DNA of 64,000 bases. It comes from Rhynchonema sp. JSB1_4. Lineage: Eukaryota > Nematoda > Chromadorea > Monhysterida > Xyalidae. Both the position numbers and the translations under genes were made by a program. The notes beneath the pieces are model-generated. The model had not been told where the DNA came from. It saw only the letters and a program-made list of their open reading frames with translations, and did no database searches. This document shows positions 31,371 through 62,506 of the stretch, piece by piece (the stretch's first letter is position 1; each line of letters opens with the position of its first letter). The stretch lies in the NCBI GenBank assembly GCA_030248065.1, contig JASAMV010009006.1, positions 38,411 to 102,410 of the forward strand, given 5' to 3'.

Positions 31371-33803
31371 ATGGGGATGAGGAAGAAGACGACCCGCACG
31401 GCAATGTGCTGCACGAAATTGGCGATTATGACTAGCATGATCAACGATCTCGCAGATAAGCCAAGCCGCAGCGCTACTATTGAATTATACGCCAATTTGC
31501 AAGCTCTGATCAATTCGGACCCAGATCTCGACTACCTGTCGATCGATCTGCCGGACATTGATTCAGATTGGTGCATCGTCATGAACGGATTCAGTATGAT
31601 TGTCAACGAAATTTTCAAGTTCTATCACAAAATTCAATTCAGGTACACATCCAATCAGATCATCCAACTCGAAGTCGGCCGATTCCGTCCCGTTACCATC
31701 GATCTGCCCGTCTCGAAAATGCCGATGCCAAAGATCGATCCGAGCAAAAAATACGACGACGTGGCACGTGAAGACCAACAGCAGGCCTACCGTAACCCAA
31801 AGATGGCAGATGTGATACCAAGTGAGGATGATTATGCCACATCACAAATGACGTCACAAACCGATCGTGCCAACTCACAGACGTCAGTGGCCTGTATCAC
31901 AATTTGCAACGGTCGACCTCGTATCAAACGAGTGCAGAGCAAAATTACAAAGTCACAAATGACCAATACCAGAATTGACTGTATCCCAAACTGGCCAGTT
32001 CAAGAAACGACTGTGAAAGAACTGATTCCATCTCAGCCAGTTTTGTCGAAGAACTCGAAAGACAAACTGCATTTTGGTATGGATCAGTTCGATGTACCAC
32101 AAAATGAACACAATCCAAACAAGGCCAAGATGGTACATCAGAAATACACAGATAAGAAAGGCAGCAATTTTGATCTATCGACTGCCAACACAAAAACAGG
32201 CCAACATATAAGTCAATCAGTTCAGGATACAGTCAGAACGGAGTCACAGAAAGGGCATGATAACAAACCACAGTACAAGACCAATGTTTTGATTTCACCC
32301 AGCTTGGCACCGAATCATTCAAATTCTAGCGGTGATCTAAATTCACAGCACAAACGTTTTGCAGCTGCAGGTGTTGAGTCTGACGCAGGTCCTGCAGGTT
32401 TACAGCCACCTTCAAGATCAGAAAGGAATGAAACATCAACGAAGACTGTTAAACATCAGCAGCCAGACGAAACAAACGCATTGATCGAGCTGATGAAACA
32501 ACAGAATGAACTGATCTTGAAAATGATTAGAAATTTGAATGATGAACAAAACGCAAATGCCAAGTCTGATGATTTAAGATTGTTGTGCGATGATTTCAAG
32601 TTTGATGGCAAATCTGGCAGTTATTCGACCTGGCGTGACTATGTCAAGATCAAAATCGACAAGACCAGCGCTGACGACAAGGTAGCAATTATGTACGTTC
32701 GATTTTGTCTCACCGGCGAGGCGGCTACGTTGTACGACAAACAGCCCAAATCAGTGAAAGAAAGTTTAGCCGCGACATTCGCGTTCCTGGATGAAAGGTA
32801 TGGGGACAAATTTGCTGAAAGGCGCGCGGCACATGAGCTGTTGATCATTAAGCAGACAAAAGATCAGTCTGTCAGGGAGTATGCTGGTTTGTTAGAAGGA
32901 ACATTAAGGTCGGCAAGTAGCCTTGAGGACCCACTGTCAGATCAGGCGATGGCGAGTTTGATGTGCAAGTTTTTCATAGACGGCCTCTACCATGAATCCA
33001 TCAAACAGAAAATGTATGTTGCCATGGCTGAAAATAAATCATTTCATGAAATGAAGCACGTCGCTCAAATAGAAGACGAGGCCATTCGAATTCGCAGTAG
33101 TATTAGCGACGTGAACGATCAAACCGACCAAAGTGTCCACCAGAATATACAGAATCGTAATTCGTACCAATACAGTGGCAATCGCGGTGCTTATTCGAAC
33201 AACGGTAACCAAGCCTGCAATTATGGTGCTGAGCCACACGACCCGAATGAAACACCGGTGAAGCAATGTGGTGGCATCACTGTTGTGAATCAAGGAATTT
33301 TCTCCGGCTCGACGACAAGTGAAACATCACTGTTGAAAGTGCCAGTTATTGGTGGCAGAAAAGTTAGAAATACACGCTTGGACACCGGTTCTGACGTGAA
33401 TTTGATTCGACCGGAGTTGGTGAAGGCTTTTGGTTGGACAAGCTTGCCAAACAAAGCGCGTATCCAGGTGCAAGGTGCTGGACGGACAAAGTTGAAAGTT
33501 CTTGGTGTAATCAGCAAGAAGTTGGAGTTGTCTGGTGGAAAGATCAAGAATTGTGAGTTTCTGGTGAGCCGAGACACCATGGGTTATGGTTTGATTATTG
33601 GAAACGAGAGTCTGTGCTCTCTGGGAATCGGTCTGATGAATCGTGCAGGTGAACAGTTGTTTGACAGCAGTGCCAAACACACGGTACCACAGAGCAGCAA
33701 AATGAGTCACGTGAAGAAATGCTGCAAAGGCAAGCCTGGCTTGAGGACCGGAATGGCGAATGGAAAGCCGCCCGGTTGTGAAACATCAGAAATGGGCAAA
33801 TGA
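31371..33803 (+). CDS. Gag-protease polyprotein of the LTR element
   Basis: An uninterrupted frame of 810 codons. The first 370 residues or so are hydrophilic and Gln/Ser/Lys-rich, with no recognised domain. About residues 380-560 look like a retrotransposon capsid region: a FKFDGKSGSYSTWRDYV start, then CLTGEAATLYD and YGDKFAERRAAHELL. A Cys/Asn-rich linker follows without a CCHC zinc knuckle. The aspartic protease lies around residues 650-750, with catalytic LDTGSD near 670 and the GLIIGNESL strand. The frame then ends; no polymerase follows, and 33804-34426 is non-coding. The start codon chosen is the first ATG of the frame; an ATG further in cannot be excluded. Three copies of the word TGAAACATCA fall in this frame. 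Confidence 0.9.
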   Translation: MGMRKKTTRTAMCCTKLAIMTSMINDLADKPSRSATIELYANLQALINSDPDLDYLSIDLPDIDSDWCIVMNGFSMIVNEIFKFYHKIQFRYTSNQIIQLEVGRFRPVTIDLPVSKMPMPKIDPSKKYDDVAREDQQQAYRNPKMADVIPSEDDYATSQMTSQTDRANSQTSVACITICNGRPRIKRVQSKITKSQMTNTRIDCIPNWPVQETTVKELIPSQPVLSKNSKDKLHFGMDQFDVPQNEHNPNKAKMVHQKYTDKKGSNFDLSTANTKTGQHISQSVQDTVRTESQKGHDNKPQYKTNVLISPSLAPNHSNSSGDLNSQHKRFAAAGVESDAGPAGLQPPSRSERNETSTKTVKHQQPDETNALIELMKQQNELILKMIRNLNDEQNANAKSDDLRLLCDDFKFDGKSGSYSTWRDYVKIKIDKTSADDKVAIMYVRFCLTGEAATLYDKQPKSVKESLAATFAFLDERYGDKFAERRAAHELLIIKQTKDQSVREYAGLLEGTLRSASSLEDPLSDQAMASLMCKFFIDGLYHESIKQKMYVAMAENKSFHEMKHVAQIEDEAIRIRSSISDVNDQTDQSVHQNIQNRNSYQYSGNRGAYSNNGNQACNYGAEPHDPNETPVKQCGGITVVNQGIFSGSTTSETSLLKVPVIGGRKVRNTRLDTGSDVNLIRPELVKAFGWTSLPNKARIQVQGAGRTKLKVLGVISKKLELSGGKIKNCEFLVSRDTMGYGLIIGNESLCSLGIGLMNRAGEQLFDSSAKHTVPQSSKMSHVKKCCKGKPGLRTGMANGKPPGCETSEMGK

Positions 33804-53975: not shown

Positions 53976-54463
53976 CAGGGTAGTACTGGGGGGGGCCGGG
54001 GGGGGGGCGGGGGGGGGCCCCCCCAAATTCATCTATCTATCGTCAACACTTTTTGATTTCATCTATCTATCGTCAACACATATGGGCAAAGCTATCTATC
54101 GTCAACAAATTTTGGGAACAATCTATCTATCGTCAACACATTTCGAACCCAAAATTGACATTTTTGCCTCAAAATGGCTCAAAATCGGTATTTTTCACCA
54201 TCACCACAAATAGGCAAAAATCGCGCGCTGCGCGCGCATTTAGTACATCTGTATACATTTTCATTAATATTTACACATTATTACCTACTTAATGCACTAT
54301 ACTATACGTTGATTTTTGGCGACCCCCCCCCCACCATCTATCTATCGTCAACAAGTTTGGGTCGACCCCCCCCCAGATTTCGGACTTTGGTCATCTATCT
54401 ATCGTCAACACATTTCGGGTCCCAATCTATCTATCGTCAACACCCTGACCAAGTACTACACTG
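53976..54463. mobile_element. hAT-like MITE, tag CTATCTATCGTCAACA
   Basis: Ends CAGGGTAGTACTGGG and CCAAGTACTACACTG, flanked by perfect 8-bp duplications GGTGGCGG (53968-53975 and 54464-54471). Four copies of ATCTATCTATCGTCAACA lie on the left and three on the right, all in the same orientation. The core has TTTTTGCCTCAAAATGG and CGCGCGCTGCGCGCG words shared in style with neighbouring elements. Non-coding. Inserted in the intron after 53908. Confidence 0.85.
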
Positions 54464-55021
54464 GGTGGCGGTGGCGGAGGATATAACGTGAAAGCCTAAA
54501 TAGAAGGGGAGGGGGCTCTATTAATTCAGTGACCCCATTTTGGGGGCTCTACCGTAAAAACCTAAATACAGCCCCCCCCCGGAATAGAGCCCCCCCCCGT
54601 AATACAGCCCCCCCAAAAAGGGGTCAGTGAATTAATAGAGCCCCCCCCCGGAATAGAGCCCCCCCCCTAAGTAACATCCCCTATACAGTAGTGTATTAAG
54701 GCTTGATAGTTGTGGACAGGTACATTTATGCACGTTTCTTGTTCGTTCAGAGCACGTAATACGCCTCTTATTGACCAATAGACACGAATAAATGCGATTA
54801 CAAGCGAAAAAACATCCTTTCAAACCCCTTTTTAGGGGTTTTTGGGGGTATTTCTGGGAACAATTTTTTCAGGTTCGGGTCAGTGAATTAATAGAGTCCC
54901 CCCCCCGGAATTATGGGTGGGCACAATACCCAATACCCAATATGGGTGGGCACAATACCCAATACCCAATACCAATACATACATACCACCCAATACCAAT
55001 ACCAATACCAGTGTTTGGTAT

Positions 55022-55415
55022 CAGTGTAGTTCCTGGTCCGGCGCGGCGGTTAGTGTACCTACCCCTTTTTTCCGTGCGGCGGTTAGTGTACCTCCATGGG
55101 GGGGAAGGGGGGGGGGAAGACCCAAATCCAGGAAAAAGTCACTTTTTGGGGTAGAAAATTTGACCGATTTTTGCCCCTTTTTGGAAAAAATTCTTCATAA
55201 AAAGGGTATTTTGGCGACTTTTGACATCATTGACCTAAAAATCACTCATTTTAGGCCTAAAAATGCCCATTTTAGGCCTAAAAATGCCAATTTTAGGCAA
55301 AAATTGAGGCGGTTAGTGTACCTGGCGCGGCGGTTAGTGTACTAGTGTACCTTGGTCGCGGCGGTTAGTGTACCTTAGGGGGGGGACCCCCCCTCCCCCC
55401 CCAGGAACTACACTG
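55022..55415. mobile_element. hAT-like MITE E1, tag GGCGGTTAGTGTACC
   Basis: Perfect 15-bp inverted ends CAGTGTAGTTCCTGG / CCAGGAACTACACTG and perfect 8-bp duplications TTTGGTAT (55014-55021 and 55416-55423). The tag GCGGCGGTTAGTGTACC occurs twice near the left and three to four times near the right, all in one orientation. The core (about 55130-55305) contains TTTTAGGCCTAAAAATGCCC repeats, called core I here. Confidence 0.92.
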
Positions 55416-55430
55416 TTTGGTATTGGTATT

Positions 55431-56110
55431 GGGTCTAATTCTGGTATTGGGTATTGGGTATTGGTATTGAAGATGGCCTGGTATTGGTATTGGGTATTGG
55501 TATTGGGTTTGTCCAGGTATTGGGTCAAAACCAATACCCAATACTAATCCAGAAAAACCCAATACCAAACCAATACCAAACCCAATACCTGACTCAAAAC
55601 CCAATACCAAACCAATGCCAAACCCAATACCAACCCAATACCAGACCAAAAACCCAATACCAAACCAATACTAAGACCAATACCCAATACCCAATACCAA
55701 TACCAACCCAATACCCAATACTCAATACCAATACCAACCCAATACCAAACCCAATACCAGGCACTTCAGTAGTATTGATCTGGTATTGGGTATTGGTATT
55801 GGTATTGAAGATGGCCTGGTATTGGTATTGGGTATTGGTATTGGGTTTGTCCAGGTATTGGGTCAAAACCAATACCCAATACTAATCCAGAAAACCCAAT
55901 ACCAAACCAATACCAAACCCAATACCTGACTCAAAACCCAATACCAAACCAATGCCAAACCCAATACCAACCCAATACCAGACCAAAAACCCAATACCAA
56001 ACCAATACTAAGACAATACCCAATACCCAATACCAATACCAACCCAATACCCAATACTCAATACCAATACCAACCCAATACCAAACCCAATACCAGGCAC
56101 TTCAGTAGTA
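55431..56110. repeat. Two tandem 337-bp units of CAATACC/GGTATTG satellite
   Basis: The unit runs from GGTATTGAAGATGGCCTGG through GTATTGGGTCAAAACCAATA to ACCAGGCACTTCAGTAGTA and is repeated with a spacing of 336-338 bp and few differences. Each unit is itself a loose palindrome of GGTATTGGGTATTGG against CCAATACCCAATACC. Confidence 0.85.
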
Positions 56111-56645
56111 TTGATCTGGTATTGGGTATTGGTATTGGTATTGGGTCTCACCCGGTATTGGTATTGGGTCACCAATTTGGTATTGGTATTGGGTATTGGG
56201 TATTGGTACAGGGCCGGTATTGGTATTGGGTATTGGTATTGGGTGTCAAAAGTGGTATTGTGCCCAGGCCTACCCGGAATAGAGCCCCCCCGTAATAGAG
56301 CCCCCCAAAATGGGGTCAGTGAGTTAATAGAGCCCCCCCTTCTATTTAGGTTTTTACGGTATTCATTCCGGGGGCTCTATAATTTCGCCACTCACCCAAA
56401 TCCGAAAAATTGTTCCCAGAAATATCCCCAAAAACCCCGAAAAGATCTTTGAAAGGATGTTTTTTCGCTTACAATCGCATTTATTCGTGTCTATTTGTCA
56501 ATATGAGGCGTATTATGTGCTCTGAGTCTGAACGAACAACAAACGTGCACAAATGTACCGGTGCAGTGCACAACTATCAAGCCTTAATGCACTACTGTAT
56601 GGGGGATGTTATTTAGGGGGGGGTGCTCTACAGTGTAGTTCCTGG

Positions 56646-57486
56646 CAGTGTAGTGGCAGGCCCATGTGTGGGAGGTAAGTATGATGCGGGGTTGGGACAG
56701 GAAGCGTGAGAGGTATGATTTTGGTCACCCAAAAACGCGAAAAAACACCGTTTTTGTGATACAATTTTGGCCAAAAAATGAGGTAAAAATAGTACTTTTT
56801 CCAAATTTTCGCCGAAAATCGCCTAAAAATAGGTATTATGGGTGGGTTTGCGCGCGGAGCGCGCGATTTTTGGGAAAATAAGGTCGAAAAACACCGATTT
56901 TTGCCTTAAAAAGGTATAAAATTGCTTGTGAGAGGTATGATTTGGAGTTGTGAGAGGTAAGTACTCAACCGCCCCCACTGTAGTGGCTGGGGGGGGGGAT
57001 TCCCCCCTAAGGGGTATCTATCTCGAGTCAACCCTTAGGGGGGGGATGGGGGGAAGGGTATCTATCTCGAGCCGACCCCAAAGGGTATCTCGAGTAAGTA
57101 GATTTATGGTTTTCAAAGGCAAAAATAGGTGTTTTTCGACCTCGGGACCCCCAAAAATCGCGCGCTCCGCGCGCAAACACCCAAAAATGGTCATTTTAGG
57201 CCAATTTTCGGCAAAAATGTCAAAAAATACCCATTTTTAGGCCAATTTTGCAGTAAAATTGCATGCAAAAAACGGCCTTTTTTCGCCTTTTGACGGACCA
57301 TAGGGGTATCTTGGGTAGCCTCTGGGGGGTATCTCGAGTAAGTCCGAAACCTTCCCCCCCTAGGGTATCTTGGGTCGATTGGCCTGCCACCACACTGCCC
57401 CCCAACCCCCCTCGGGTTTTGTGGTAGGTAAGTACTGAGAGGGGGGGTAACCCCCCCAACCCCCCCCCCCCCCAGCCACTACTATG
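56646..57486. mobile_element. hAT-like element E9, tag GAGAGGTATGATT, inserted in E2L
   Basis: Left end CAGTGTAGTGGCAGGCC; right end AGCCACTACTATG (diverged CACTG). Both sides have GTTCCTGG (56638-56645 and 57487-57494), a perfect 8-bp duplication that splits the E2L end. The core is of the CCTAAAAATAGGTATTATGG type (core II). E10 sits inside. Confidence 0.75.
56976..57397. mobile_element. hAT-like element E10, tag GGGTATCTCGAGT
   Basis: Left end CACTGTAGTGGCTGGGG, right end GGCCTGCCACCACACTG. Tag words GGGTATCTATCTCGAGTC, GGGTATCTCGAGTAAG and GGGTATCTTGGGT occur at both ends around a core II copy (57105-57297). The flanks are C-rich and the duplication could not be read. Confidence 0.6.
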
Positions 57487-57555
57487 GTTCCTGGTCCGGA
57501 GGGGGAGATAGCGGACCCTCCGTTTTTTCGGAGGGGGAGATAGTGTACCCCCGAG

Positions 57556-57957
57556 CAGTGTAGTTCCTGGTCCGGAGGGGGAACAGGCGGTATCCCACTT
57601 TTTTCGGAGGGGGAACAGACGTACCCACTTTGGGGGGAAGGGGGGGACGGACCCGGAAGGGGGGGAGGACCCAAATTTGGAGAAAAGTCATTTTTTGAGG
57701 TCGAAAATTTGGCTCATTTTTGCCCCTTTTAGGAAAAAAATCTCAATAAAAAGGGTATTTTGGCGATTTTTGACGACATTGACCTAAAAATCACTCATTT
57801 TATGCCTAAAAATGCCTATTTTAGGCCAAAATTTGCCTATGTTAGGTAAAAATTGGGGGAGCAGACGTACCCGGAGGGGGAACAGTGGGGCAGGCGTACC
57901 ATGGAGGGGGAACAGACGTACCCGAGGTGGGGGACCCTCCCCCCAGGAACTACACTG
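57556..57957. mobile_element. hAT-like MITE E3, tag GGGGGAACAGACGTACCC
   Basis: Perfect 15-bp ends CAGTGTAGTTCCTGG / CCAGGAACTACACTG; flanks CCCCCGAG and CCCGCGAG (7 of 8 match). The tag is present twice at left and three times at right; core I in the middle. Inserted in E2L, whose uninterrupted twin E2R shows the empty site. Confidence 0.88.
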
Positions 57958-57984
57958 CCCGCGAGGGGGGAAGGGGGGGGGGAA

Positions 57985-58412
57985 TATACTTGCGTATTTT
58001 TCCGCAAAATATATTTTTGGAAAAAAAACCGTTTTTTTTCCGAAAAAAAACCGTTTTTTTTTCAAACATTTTTCCAGTACTTAAGGATACCCATGGTCCA
58101 AAAACGCGTATTTTGGAGAAAATTTTATCGGGAAATGGCCTGAAACAGGCTAAAAATGCACTTGCAGATTAAAAAGTGCTCATTTTGAACTGTTTAGCAC
58201 CGATTTACATTGGTTTTGACAACATCCTTTCGCAACCTTTGAAAATATCTCGAAAATTTTTGGAAAAAAAACCGTTTTTTTTCCAAAAGTTGCCACTTGG
58301 AAAAATTTCCGGAAAAATAAAAACGTATTTTTCCGGGCCTCGGAAAAAAAACGGTTTTTTTTCGGTTTTTTTTCCGAAAAAAAAACGGTTTTTTTTCCGG
58401 CCCGCAAGTATA
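57985..58412. mobile_element. TIR element E4 of a different family (TATACTTGCG ends)
   Basis: TATACTTGCG at left and CGCAAGTATA at right. The interior is made of CCGTTTTTTTTCCG/CGGAAAAAAAACGG palindromes around a unique 150-bp middle. The flanks share GGGGGAA (57978-57984 and 58413-58419). The E2R copy lacks it, giving an empty-site comparison. Confidence 0.75.
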
Positions 58413-59458
58413 GGGGGAAGACCCAAATTCGGGAAAAAGTCACTTTTTGGGGTAGAAAATTTGACCTATTTTTGCCCCTTTTGGAAAAAATTCTTCAGAA
58501 AAAGGGTATTTTGGCGACTTTTGAGAACATTGACCTGAAAATCACTCATTTTTGGCCTAAAAATGCCCATTTTACGCCTAAAAATGCCTATTTTAGGCAA
58601 AAATTGGGGGGAGATAGTGTACCCGGAGGGGGAGATAGGGGGATAGTGTACCACCTGAGGGGGAGATAGTGTACCCGAGGGGGGGGGGGCCCCCCCCCCC
58701 CCCCCCCACCAGGAACTACACTGCCTTGCAACCATCTGGGTCCATCCCCCCCAAGGGTACCTTGCAACCATTTGCCTGCCACTACACTGCCCTAAGGTAC
58801 ACTAATTTCCCCGACCAAGGCACACTCCGGGTACATTAATTTCCCCAATTTTTGCCCAAAATGGGCATTTTTAGGCCTAAAATGTGTGATTTTTAGGTCA
58901 ATGTTCTCAAAAGTCAAAATACCCTTTTTATGAAGAATTTTTTTCAAAAAGGAGCAAAAATAGGTCAAATTTTCTACCTCAAAAAGTGACTTTTCCCTGA
59001 TTTTGGGTCTCCCCCCTTCCCCCAGGGAGGTACACTACTTTCCCCTCCGAAAAAAGTAAGGAGGTACACTAATTTCCCCGCCGGACCAGGAACTACGCTG
59101 GCAGGCAGATGGTTGCAAGGCACCCTTGGGGGGATGATCCAGATGGTTGCAAGGTACCCCCTACCCAGGCTCCGGAAGGTTGCAAGGTATCCCTAGGGTC
59201 TGAAAAAAACGTGTTTTTTGCATGCATTATACTGCAAAATTGGCCAAAAAATTGGTACTTTTTTGTATTTTGGTCGAAAATTTGCCTAAAATAGCTATTA
59301 TATGGAGGTTTGCGCGATCTTTGGGGTTTTGAGGTCGAAAAATACCCATTTTTGCCTATGAAAACCATAAATTGATGGTTGCAAGGTACCCTTCGGGATG
59401 GTTGCAAGGTACCTACCCCTTAGGGGGGAATCCCCCTCCCATCCACTACACTGCCTCC

Positions 59459-59810
59459 CAGTGCAGTTCCTGGGGGAAAGGGGGTCTCCCCCTAGCCCCT
59501 AAGGTATACTAACCGCCGCGACCAAGGTACACTAGTACACTAACCGCCGCGCCAGGTACACTAACCGCCTCAATTTTTGCCTAGAATCGGCACTTTTAGG
59601 CCTAAAATGGGCATTTTTAGGCCTAAAATGGGTGATTTTTAGGTCAATGATGTCAAAAGTCGCCAAAATACCCTTTTTATGGAAAATGTTTTCCAAAAAG
59701 GGGCAAAAATCGGTCAAATTTTCGACCTCAAAGTCTTTTTCCTGAATTTGGGTCTTCCCCTTCCCCCAGGGAGGGACACTAACCGCCGCGCCGGACCAGG
59801 AACCACACTG
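59459..59810. mobile_element. hAT-like MITE E13, tag TACACTAACCGCCGCG
   Basis: Ends CAGTGCAGTTCCTGG and CCAGGAACCACACTG with perfect 8-bp duplications CTGCCTCC (59451-59458 and 59811-59818). Core I and tag as in E1, with the opposite tag orientation. Its mirror partner (59919-60214) has lost one end at the palindrome centre. Confidence 0.88.
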
Positions 59811-60884
59811 CTGCCTCCCACACATGGGCCTGCCACTACACTGATATATAGTGTGTTATTTTCCCCAAAAAAGCGTTTTTTTGCGAATTTGGGTCGCTTT
59901 TTCCCCAAAAAAGCGACCCAAATTCGGGAAAAAGTCACTTTTTGAGGTCGAAAATTTGACCGATTTTTGCCCCTTTTTGGAAAACATTCTCCATAAAAAG
60001 GGTATTTTGGCGACTTTTGACATCATTGACCTAAAAATCACCCATTTTAGGCCTAAAAATGCCCATTTTAGGCCTAAAAGTGCCGATTCTAGGCAAAAAT
60101 TGAGGCGGTTAGTGTACCTGGCGCGGCGGTTAGTGTACTAGTGTACCTTGGTCGCGGCGGTTAGTATACCTTAGGGGCTAGGGGGAGACCCCCTTTCCCC
60201 CAGGAACTGCACTGGGAGGCAGTGTAGTGGATGGGAGGGGGATTCCCCCCTAAGGGGTAGGTACCTTGCAACCATCCCGAAGGGTACCTTGCAACCATCA
60301 ATTTATGGTTTTCATAGGCAAAAATGGGTATTTTTCGACCTCAAAACCCCAAAGATCGCGCAAACCTCCATATAATAGCTATTTTAGGCAAATTTTCGAC
60401 CAAAATACAAAAAAGTACCAATTTTTTTGGCCAATTTTGCAGTATAATGCATGCAAAAAACACGTTTTTTTCAGACCCTAGGGATACCTTGCAACCTTCC
60501 GGAGCCTGGGTAGCGGGTACCTTGCAACCATCTGGATCATCCCCCCAAGGGTGCCTTGCAACCATCTGCCTGCCAGTGTAGTTCCTGGTCCGGCGGGGAA
60601 ATTAGTGTACCTCCTTACTTTTTTCGGAGGGGAAAGTAGTGTACCTCCCTGGGGGAAGGGGGGAGACCCAAAATCAGGGAAAAGTAACTTTTTGAGGTAG
60701 AAAATTTGACCTATTTTTGCTCCTTTTTGAAAAAAATTCTTCATAAAAAGGGTATTTTGACTTTTGAGAACATTGACCTAAAAATCACACATTTTAGGCC
60801 TAAAAATGCCCATTTTGGGCAAAAATTGGGGAAATTAATGTACCCGGAGTGTGCCTTGGTCGGGGAAATTAGTGTACCTTAGGG

Positions 60885-61693
60885 CAGTGTAGTGGCAGGC
60901 AAATGGTTGCAAGGTACCCTTGGGGGGGATGGACCCAGATGGTTGCAAGGCAGTGTAGTTCCTGGTGGGGGGGGAGGGGGGTCCCCCCCCCTCGGGTACA
61001 CTATCTCCCCCTCAGGTGGTACACTATCCCCCTATCTCCCCCTCCGGGTACACTATCTCCCCTAATTTTTGCCTAAAATAGGCATTTTTAGGCGTAAAAT
61101 GGGCATTTTTAGGCCAAAAATGAGTGATTTTCAGGTCAATGTTCTCAAAAGTCGCCAAAATACCCTTTTTCTGAAGAATTTTTTCCAAAAAGGGGCAAAA
61201 ATAGGTCAAATTTTCTACCTCAAAAAGTGACTTTTTCCAGAATTTGGGTCTTCCCCCCCCCTTCCCCCCCCTCGGGGGTACACTGTCTCCCCCTCCGAAA
61301 AAAACGGAGGGTCCGCTATCTCCCCCTCCGGACCAGGAACTACACTGTTGCAAGGTACCCCCTACCCAGCCTCCGGGAGGTTGCAAGGTACCCCTGAGGT
61401 CCGAAAAAAGGGTGTTTTTTGCATGCATTACACTGCAAATTTGGCCGAAAAAATGGTACTTTTTTGCATTTTGGCCGAAAATTTGCCTAAAATACCTATT
61501 ATATGGAAGTGTTCGAAAAACACCCATTCCCATTTTTACCTATAAAAACCATAAATTGATGGTTGCAAGGTACCCTCCGGGGTGGTTGCAAGGTACCTAC
61601 CCGGCCCCCCCCCATCCCCCCCAAGGGGTGGTTGCAAGGTACCTACTCCTTAGGGGGGGGAAATCCCCCCAGCCACTACACTGCCTTAGGGGG
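60885..61693. mobile_element. hAT-like element E6, tag GGTTGCAAGGTACC, host of E2R
   Basis: Left end CAGTGTAGTGGCAGGC, right end CAGCCACTACACTG; perfect 8-bp duplications CCTTAGGG (60877-60884 and 61694-61701). Tag copies on both sides of core II (61395-61555). E2R is inserted in a tag copy. Confidence 0.87.
60951..61347. mobile_element. hAT-like MITE E2R, tag GGGGGAGATAGTGTACCC
   Basis: 397 bp; perfect 15-bp inverted ends and perfect 8-bp duplications TTGCAAGG (60943-60950 and 61348-61355). The tag (here as GGGTACACTATCTCCCCC) occurs three times at left and twice, diverged, at right; core I in the middle. Uninterrupted twin of E2L. Confidence 0.92.
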
Positions 61694-62100
61694 TCCCCCC
61701 CCCCCCCCCCCCCCCGGAACTACACTGCTGCCTTGCCTGCCACTATACTGGTGGGAGGCAAGTATGATGCGGGGTTGGGACCGGAAGCATGAGAGGTATG
61801 ATTTTGGACACCCAAAAAGGCAAAAAACACCGTTTTGTGATACAATTTTGGCCAAAAGAATGAGGTAAAAATAGTACTCTGTTCGAATTTTCGCAGAAAA
61901 TCGCCTAAAAATAGGTATTATGGGCGGGTTCGCTCAATTTTTGGGAAAAGAAGGTCGAAAAACACCGATTTTTGCCTTAAAACGTAACAGTGACATCTAA
62001 GTTTCTAAGTAACATTCCCTGTACAGTAGTGTATTAAGGCTTGATAGTGGTGCACAGGTACATTTATGCACGTTTGTTGTTCGTTCAGAGCACATAATAC

Positions 62101-62506
62101 CAGTGGTGTCGTTGGGAAATCAAAAAGTCAGGATACCGGATACCCAAAATCCAAAATTTTCGGATACCGGATACCAAAAATGAAAAATCTCTGATACCAG
62201 GGGGGTTGCCTCCCAAAATAAAAAATCTCGGATACCCAGGGGGTTGTTCAAAAAAGGTCAATTTTTTAGAGGAAAATTGAGCAAAATTGGTGTTGGAAGC
62301 GCAAAAAATGGTCATTTTTGGGGTTATTCTTGCGCTAGCAAGCGATTTTGAGCATTTTAGAGATAAAAATGGGCGATTTTTACGGTTTTCGGAAAAGTTT
62401 AGGGTAAGGTACCCCTGGACTAAAAGTCAGGATACCGGATACCCCTGGGTGAAAAAATCAAGATACCGGATACTATGGTAACCCCCCCCCCCCAACGACA
62501 CCACTG
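62101..62506. mobile_element. hAT-like MITE E7, tag GGATACCGGATACC
   Basis: Perfect 16-bp ends CAGTGGTGTCGTTGGG / CCCAACGACACCACTG; flanks CATAATAC and CATAATCA (6 of 8). Tag words GGATACCGGATACC occur twice at left and twice or more at right. The core has AAAATGGGCGATTTTTACGG. Same plan as E1-E13 with a diverged end and its own tag. Confidence 0.85.

Follow-up and report, generated by a model that had tools for sequence, protein, structure and literature searches.

Subterminal tags that differ together at both ends of short, probably hAT-type elements on a constant scaffold in Rhynchonema

The window analysed here is a 64,000-nucleotide stretch of the nematode Rhynchonema sp. JSB1_4 (contig JASAMV010009006.1, positions 38411-102410, or G000:C5524:38411-102410 in our numbering; assembly of 204 Mb in 5747 contigs). 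At window positions 53976-62506 it holds small CAGTG...CACTG elements nested together, with 8-bp target-site duplications (TSDs) and a short repeated word, the tag, near both ends. The tip CAGTGNAGTKNCNGG, allowing at most one mismatch, matches 24 times within the window against 0.37 expected from shuffling; genome-wide, the tip motif CAGTGTAGTKNCNGG occurs 13,412 times (6697 + 6715), against 18 (10 + 8) for its reversed control. The T1 tag word likewise has 3335 + 3286 matches genome-wide and none when reversed. A first-pass annotation of the window had proposed a family of such elements with subfamily-specific tags, and the use of tag words as ordinary satellite, which would have spoken otherwise, was not seen in this window: all nine tag words (at most two mismatches) lie exclusively at or beyond position 54033, with none in 1-54032, and are confined to the element cluster. 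We call the scaffold of T1-T4 class A and the core of T5-T7 class B; the elements are as follows.

53976-54463, minus strand: T9 element of a separate family; ends CAGKGTAGTACTKGG, tag TGTTGACGATAGATAG, exact TSD GGTGGCGG; relatives at L119, L002 and L014.
55022-55415, plus strand: T1 element, class A; tag GGCGGTTAGTGTACC at L1, L2, R1 and R3, extended at R2; exact TSD TTTGGTAT.
56631-58723, plus strand: T2 element, class A; tag GGGGGAGATAGTGTACCC; split by T7, which itself holds T6, by T4a and by a further element; flanks GTGCTCTA/CCTTGCAA, no TSD.
56646-57486, plus strand: T7 element, class B core, in the T2 left tip and split by T6; tag GAGAGGTATGATT, exact TSD GTTCCTGG; intact relative at L009:1100-1515.
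56976-57397, plus strand: T6 element, class B core, aligned to T5; tag GGGTATCTCGAGT; a C-run blurs the TSD.
57556-57957, plus strand: T4a element, class A; tag GGGGGAACAGACGTACCC; TSD CCCCCGAG/CCCGCGAG with 1 mismatch.
58683-60991, no strand: nested elements duplicated in inverted orientation, with arms 58683-59264/60410-60991 and 59236-59732/59941-60437, 98 and 99% complementary.
58790-59100, minus strand: T3 element, class A, mirror copy minus one end.
59459-59810, minus strand: further T1 element; exact TSD CTGCCTCC.
60220-60573, plus strand: T5 element, class B core; tag GGTTGCAAGGTACC (here on the other strand); its right end is cut by T3.
60574-61727, plus strand: T3 element, class A, split by T5; tag GGGGAAATTAGTGTACC; flanks CTGCCTGC/CTGCCTTG with 2 mismatches.
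60885-61683, minus strand: T5 element inside T3; exact TSD CCTTAGGG.
60951-61347, minus strand: T2 element inside the T5 tag; exact TSD TTGCAAGG.
62101-62506, plus strand: T8 element of a separate family; ends CAGTGGTGTCGTTGG, tag GGATACCGGATACC; imperfect TSD CATAATAC/CATAATCA.

Nesting reaches three levels at 60574-61727 (T2 within T5 within T3), and two mechanically called open reading frames (ORFs; 169 and 182 aa) span nested elements at 61024-61792. The nine elements originally counted are not all independent: part of the nest is the inverted duplication 58683-60991, with arms 98-99% alike, and several T1, T3 and T5 copies are therefore mirror pairs. The duplication, centred near 59837, could be the product of hairpin chemistry of the hAT type or of a fold in the assembly; contig C9 seemingly has a similar mirror layout, with equal flanks.

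Class A copies are typically ~390 bp long (subfamily consensus 363-405 bp) and run from a 20-bp left tip, CAGTGTAGTTCCTGGTCCGG, through slot L1, a spacer, L2, a G-run, a core of ~170 bp, R1, R2, R3 and a G/C-run to a 15-bp right tip. Tags occupy the five slots at fixed positions as direct repeats, on one strand at both ends and not inverted; because they are read on the same strand, the two ends of an element are not mirror images. The R2 slot is an extended tag, with TAGTGTAC repeated in T1 and T3 and G-rich letters inserted in T2 and T4, and L1 in T2 and T4a diverges from the tag past the slot. T4 splits into two subfamilies, T4a and T4b, with a common tag and two cores. The short terminal inverted repeats (TIRs) of hAT elements have a consensus beginning YARNG, which the CAGTG tip of classes A and B fits; CATAG stands in some class B right tips. 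Class A left ends number at least 4259 genome-wide, and the elements combine the short length, high copy number and TIRs of miniature inverted-repeat transposable elements (MITEs) with the 8-bp TSD and the subterminal repeats at both ends of hAT elements. The 20-bp tip had no match among viral contigs.

To compare the two ends of each copy, we drew on 96 of 100 listed class A left ends (of the 4259) together with pairs from tip-motif matches, leaving interrupted or cut copies unscored. The script returned 64 complete rows: T1/T1 19, T2/T2 19, T4/T4 18, T3/T3 3 and five others. Among the 59 like-tagged rows, L114 (436 bp) proved to be an outer T1 tip read across a whole nested T2; of the five others, L081 and L096 were assigned by eye to T3 and L070 to T2, L076 is a decayed copy resembling T4, and in L134 (400) the outer tip belongs to T1 and the right tip to a nested T4. 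Removal of three repeats of one site and of L114, L134 and L076 left 58 elements, typed by their right tags as T1 19, T2 18, T4b 9, T4a 7 and T3 5, among which L014/L026 and L115/L129 may still each stem from a single site that was duplicated. In all 58 the left tags match the right tags (55 by rule; L070, L081 and L096 by eye), and an 8-bp duplication with 0-1 mismatch flanks 48 of them, as had been proposed for the CAGTG..CACTG elements from the window alone. Exact T1 words gave a parallel view: genome-wide they comprise 1270 left ends, 1201 right markers and 6621 tags, and when 100 listed left ends were paired with 94 listed right markers, a marker followed 200-360 bp on, on the same strand, for 51 of the left ends, on the opposite strand for none and further on (up to 3000 bp) for 10. 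Separately, the joined 40-bp empty sites of 18 of the 48 class A insertions hold another family's tag or tip, compared with 265 among 2000 40-mers drawn at random from four dense 10-kb stretches and 2 among 2000 from window positions 1-53000; insertion apparently tends to hit the tags of other elements.

Consensus comparison over four of the five slots (R2 omitted, L1 hand-aligned) revealed that tags and scaffold have diverged to very different extents. Between T1 and T2, 18 of 48 slot letters differ, against 6 of 172 in the core and 0 of 35 in the tips, and the change is nearly identical in each slot (5, 4, 4 and 5 letters). The T1-T3 pair differs at 16/48 slot and 11/151 core positions and T2-T3 at 14/48 and 7/151; the T4a-T4b pair differs at 1/48 slot and 33/172 core positions. 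Consensus tips are identical across all five class A subfamilies. With each tag change counted once, slots still differ from core in T1-T2 (p 0.0018), T1-T3 (p 0.015) and T2-T3 (p 0.028). Per-slot distances (of 12 letters) are 4 for T1-T3, 3-4 for T2-T3, 4-5 for T1-T2, 4-6 for T2-T4a, 5-7 for T3-T4a and 8-9 for T1-T4a, and tags of neighbouring subfamilies lie 3-6/12 letters apart with GTACC retained. As the differences are partial and GTACC is kept, they suggest concerted divergence of one tag rather than the swapping of unrelated cassettes; of the radiation on a constant scaffold originally envisaged, the joint difference of tags at both ends stands, whereas freely exchangeable cassettes are not supported. 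A strictly linear order, T1-T3-T2-T4, was considered and is a guess only, because T1, T2 and T3 are nearly equidistant (3-5/12) and only T4 is clearly nearest to T2.

Tag and core are separable. In a tree of 57 cores without tags (L096, too short, was omitted), one clade (98/92) unites 17 of 18 T2, 4 of 4 T3 and one T1 row, with the T3 rows at three places; the five labels require 9 changes on the tree, against a possible minimum of 4 and a shuffled mean of 31. The T1 row in this clade, L118, combines T1 tags in the slots of either end with a core of the T2/T3 type, and its TSD is exact.

A parallel case comes from T5, T6 and T7, represented by one copy each, which have a common second core and different tags. 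Core identity is 0.87 over 181 columns for T5-T6, 0.76 for T5-T7 and 0.78 for T6-T7, with pair scores of 132-228 against shuffled maxima of 22-30; against the T1 consensus the class B core scores 31-33, with a shuffled maximum of 25, and is therefore at best distantly like that of class A. The idea that every element in the nest has one of two cores accordingly holds for T1-T4 and T5-T7, but T8 (CAGTGGTGTCGTTGG) and T9 (CAGTGTAGTACTTGG) have other inner tips and are separate families. T8-T13 are additional families in all, each with its own tips and tags, and by eye GTACC or ATACC, on one strand, appears in 11 of 13 tags (absent in T9 and T13). Among eight scanned elements, a GCGCG..CGCGC hairpin sits mid-core in T5, T6, T7, T9 and T12, whose tags differ, and not in T1, T11 or T13. 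At L045:442-856 and L058:about 600-1000 the T8 tip is present and the repeated word GGTATGGG replaces GGATACC, which may make this a third instance of a tip family with two tags. A larger CAATACC-repeat element at ~54914-56270, whose style recalls the other tags, hosts the T1 insertion at 55022.

Copies with unlike ends, which the first-pass annotation had named as a sign against its proposal, are rare among those examined: three were found, all without a TSD. A query joining T1-left and T2-right halves gave two outliers at 627 and 604 bits, the remaining full-length matches among the best 40 of 4051 candidates reaching at most 567. Both outliers, L160 and L161, combine left tags of T1 with right tags of T2, and their 8-bp flanks do not match. 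In the third copy, the T1 element L064:4524-5155, a right end of T2 complete with its tip precedes the last T1 right tags; the outer T1 ends have a TSD, and the T1-left/T2-right pair has none. The reverse query, T2-left/T1-right, gave no clear outlier among the best 40 of 3352 candidates (best 93%, 584 bits; next 573). These searches are not a census, because the known recombinant L064 (contig C32, interrupted) was absent from the scored 40. Since all three mismatched pairs lack a TSD, they weakly suggest that unlike ends arise by recombination, with no transposed unlike-ended copy among the three; the contrast with like-ended elements (0/3 vs 48/58, p 0.008) is weak at n=3.

The search for a matching transposase led to two other hAT families. 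The PF05699 profile gave 330 candidates, of which 150 were scored and 50 inspected (the 30 best and 20 by 3' flank alone). An H or TAGGG end was found at 47 of these hAT-domain loci, and 3 had no intact end. The H element has the tip CAGTGTTCGAAC, a length of 1.1-1.5 kb, a TSD and, near either end, same-strand copies of the tag ATCCCGATCCCG; with class A it has in common CAGTG tips, 8-bp TSDs and same-strand tags, and it holds the hAT domain. The 30 best loci comprise 21 complete H elements, 5 TAGGGATCGG elements with GTGTCGG tags, and four loci that have both H tips and no TSD (L032, L052), one H tip (L048) or none (L038); the 20 loci assessed on the 3' side show the expected H tip in 16, a TAGGG tip in 2 and neither in L140 and L143. 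Class A or B tips beside some hAT-domain loci belong to hosts or neighbours only. The catalytic hAT domain PF14372 had no match here, which is uninformative because control genomes were equally silent.

Searching for zf-BED yielded 32 matches, 23 of them with one identical score. In one of these 23 copies, L159:238-801, a BED domain (27-59) and a dimerisation domain (136-184) lie in one 188-aa frame, open at the fetched end, with no catalytic domain reported between them; the encoded protein had no match at E <= 0.001. L037 has both domains, their common frame not demonstrated, and L157 and L158 have BED alone. All four are small hAT elements with no catalytic domain seen, and such BED-bearing elements could possibly act as transposition repressors. 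A bolder scheme, in which BED plus dimerisation proteins partner with a common catalytic transposase and direct it towards tag-matched MITEs, strikes us as improbable; if true, such a split transposase would let one set of tips and scaffold serve many tag codes. A Pfam scan of eight window ORFs matched only the 810-aa ORF at 31371-33803, which has an aspartic-protease domain, probably belongs to a retroelement and had no relative at E <= 0.001.

The available portions of two studies report that BED domains of Hermes bind subterminal repeats, the effective site being AAGT beside an AT-rich stretch (PMC10368747), and that Ac transposase binds AAACGG repeats (PMC3260210). By analogy, the best-supported reading of the tags is that they may be transposase addresses, and we lean towards the view that the family consists of short hAT-type MITEs whose binding addresses would have radiated on a constant scaffold. 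The MITEs would be moved in trans and cut within the constant 20/15-bp tips, and tags at the five one-strand slots would be the subterminal sites by which a transposase picks its element. Several tag changes would have occurred in one lineage, each in the slots of both ends, with tips and core nearly unchanged; the direct-repeat layout could permit copying of one slot onto others in post-excision repair, and selection for matching ends would remove half-changed copies.

Several observations weigh against this view. None of the 50 inspected hAT-domain loci, of 150 scored, is bounded by a class A or B tip of its own, and the matching paralogous transposases tentatively suggested at first pass did not appear among them. 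The hAT TSD consensus is nTnnnnAn, and class A TSDs follow only half of it, with A at position 7 in 27/51 and T at position 2 in 13/51 (before deduplication). The youth of the copies makes tag agreement inside a subfamily partly trivial, the slots do not count as independent of one another, and tag conservation between T4a and T4b is not significant once slots are collapsed (p 0.13). Moreover, the three copies with unlike ends are recombinants, and a recombinant has no TSD in any case.

A competing account would have the core move and not the tag: the ends of each subfamily would be tied to their own autonomous elements, and a favoured core would spread between them by gene conversion or by recombination of nested copies. 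The core type common to T2 and T3 and also found in one T1 element, the T1-left/T2-right recombinants and the heavy nesting are all in keeping with it. The ends are not independent families, however, because all five subfamilies have the same consensus tips; in addition, the tag differences are partial, with GTACC retained, and T4a and T4b have one tag and differing cores. We regard this account as possible, though unlikely. Plain descent, in which each subfamily is a burst from its own master copy, agreement follows from youth alone and tags change in each master by neutral homogenisation with no role in specificity, appears more doubtful still. Direct repeats do homogenise readily, and 40 T1 places scored as the best of 3326 candidates, the 55022 copy included, are 97-100% identical over their full length; yet slot divergence between T1 and T2 is ~10x that of the core, and the T4a-T4b slots hardly differ, a contrast that loses significance with slots collapsed. 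That the elements belong to another superfamily with 8-bp duplications is very improbable. P elements and their MITEs make 8-bp TSDs, according to the accessible part of one report (PMC1562414), and class A TSDs match the hAT consensus in part only, but CAGTG tips, same-strand tags and TSD length are shared with the hAT-domain H elements, whose TSDs have T at position 2 in 15/20 and A at position 7 in 13/20.

If the tags are addresses, the family bears on the open question of how a transposase alters its DNA specificity while keeping its own element. A single genome here holds at least four tag codes on a common scaffold, in thousands of copies, with T5-T7 as a parallel case, and the recombinants could act as natural mismatched controls; co-change of binding sites at both ends is therefore directly testable. 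Judged by titles and abstract openings, the literature covered, which leaves out most subscription journals, does not describe MITEs whose tags change together while the scaffold stays constant, and seven papers containing one of four tip or tag strings had titles and abstract openings unrelated to transposons.

Three known systems offer comparison, each through the available part of its source. Hermes, like the present elements, has fixed-pattern short repeats inside its tips, an 8-bp target and, as we interpret the account, repeats mostly on one strand across both ends; its site is AAGT, whereas here tags of 12-17 bases vary by subfamily on one scaffold (PMC10368747). Ac/Ds of maize likewise includes non-autonomous elements with common tips, an 8-bp TSD and subterminal transposase-binding repeats, but the portion consulted gives a single family repeat, AAACGG, and no concerted tag change on a constant scaffold (PMC3260210). 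The P-element MITEs of Anopheles also form multiple subfamilies in one genome with 8-bp TSDs; there the 5' and 3' parts of the P element are kept around an unrelated interior, whereas here tips and interior are kept and the tags change (PMC1562414).

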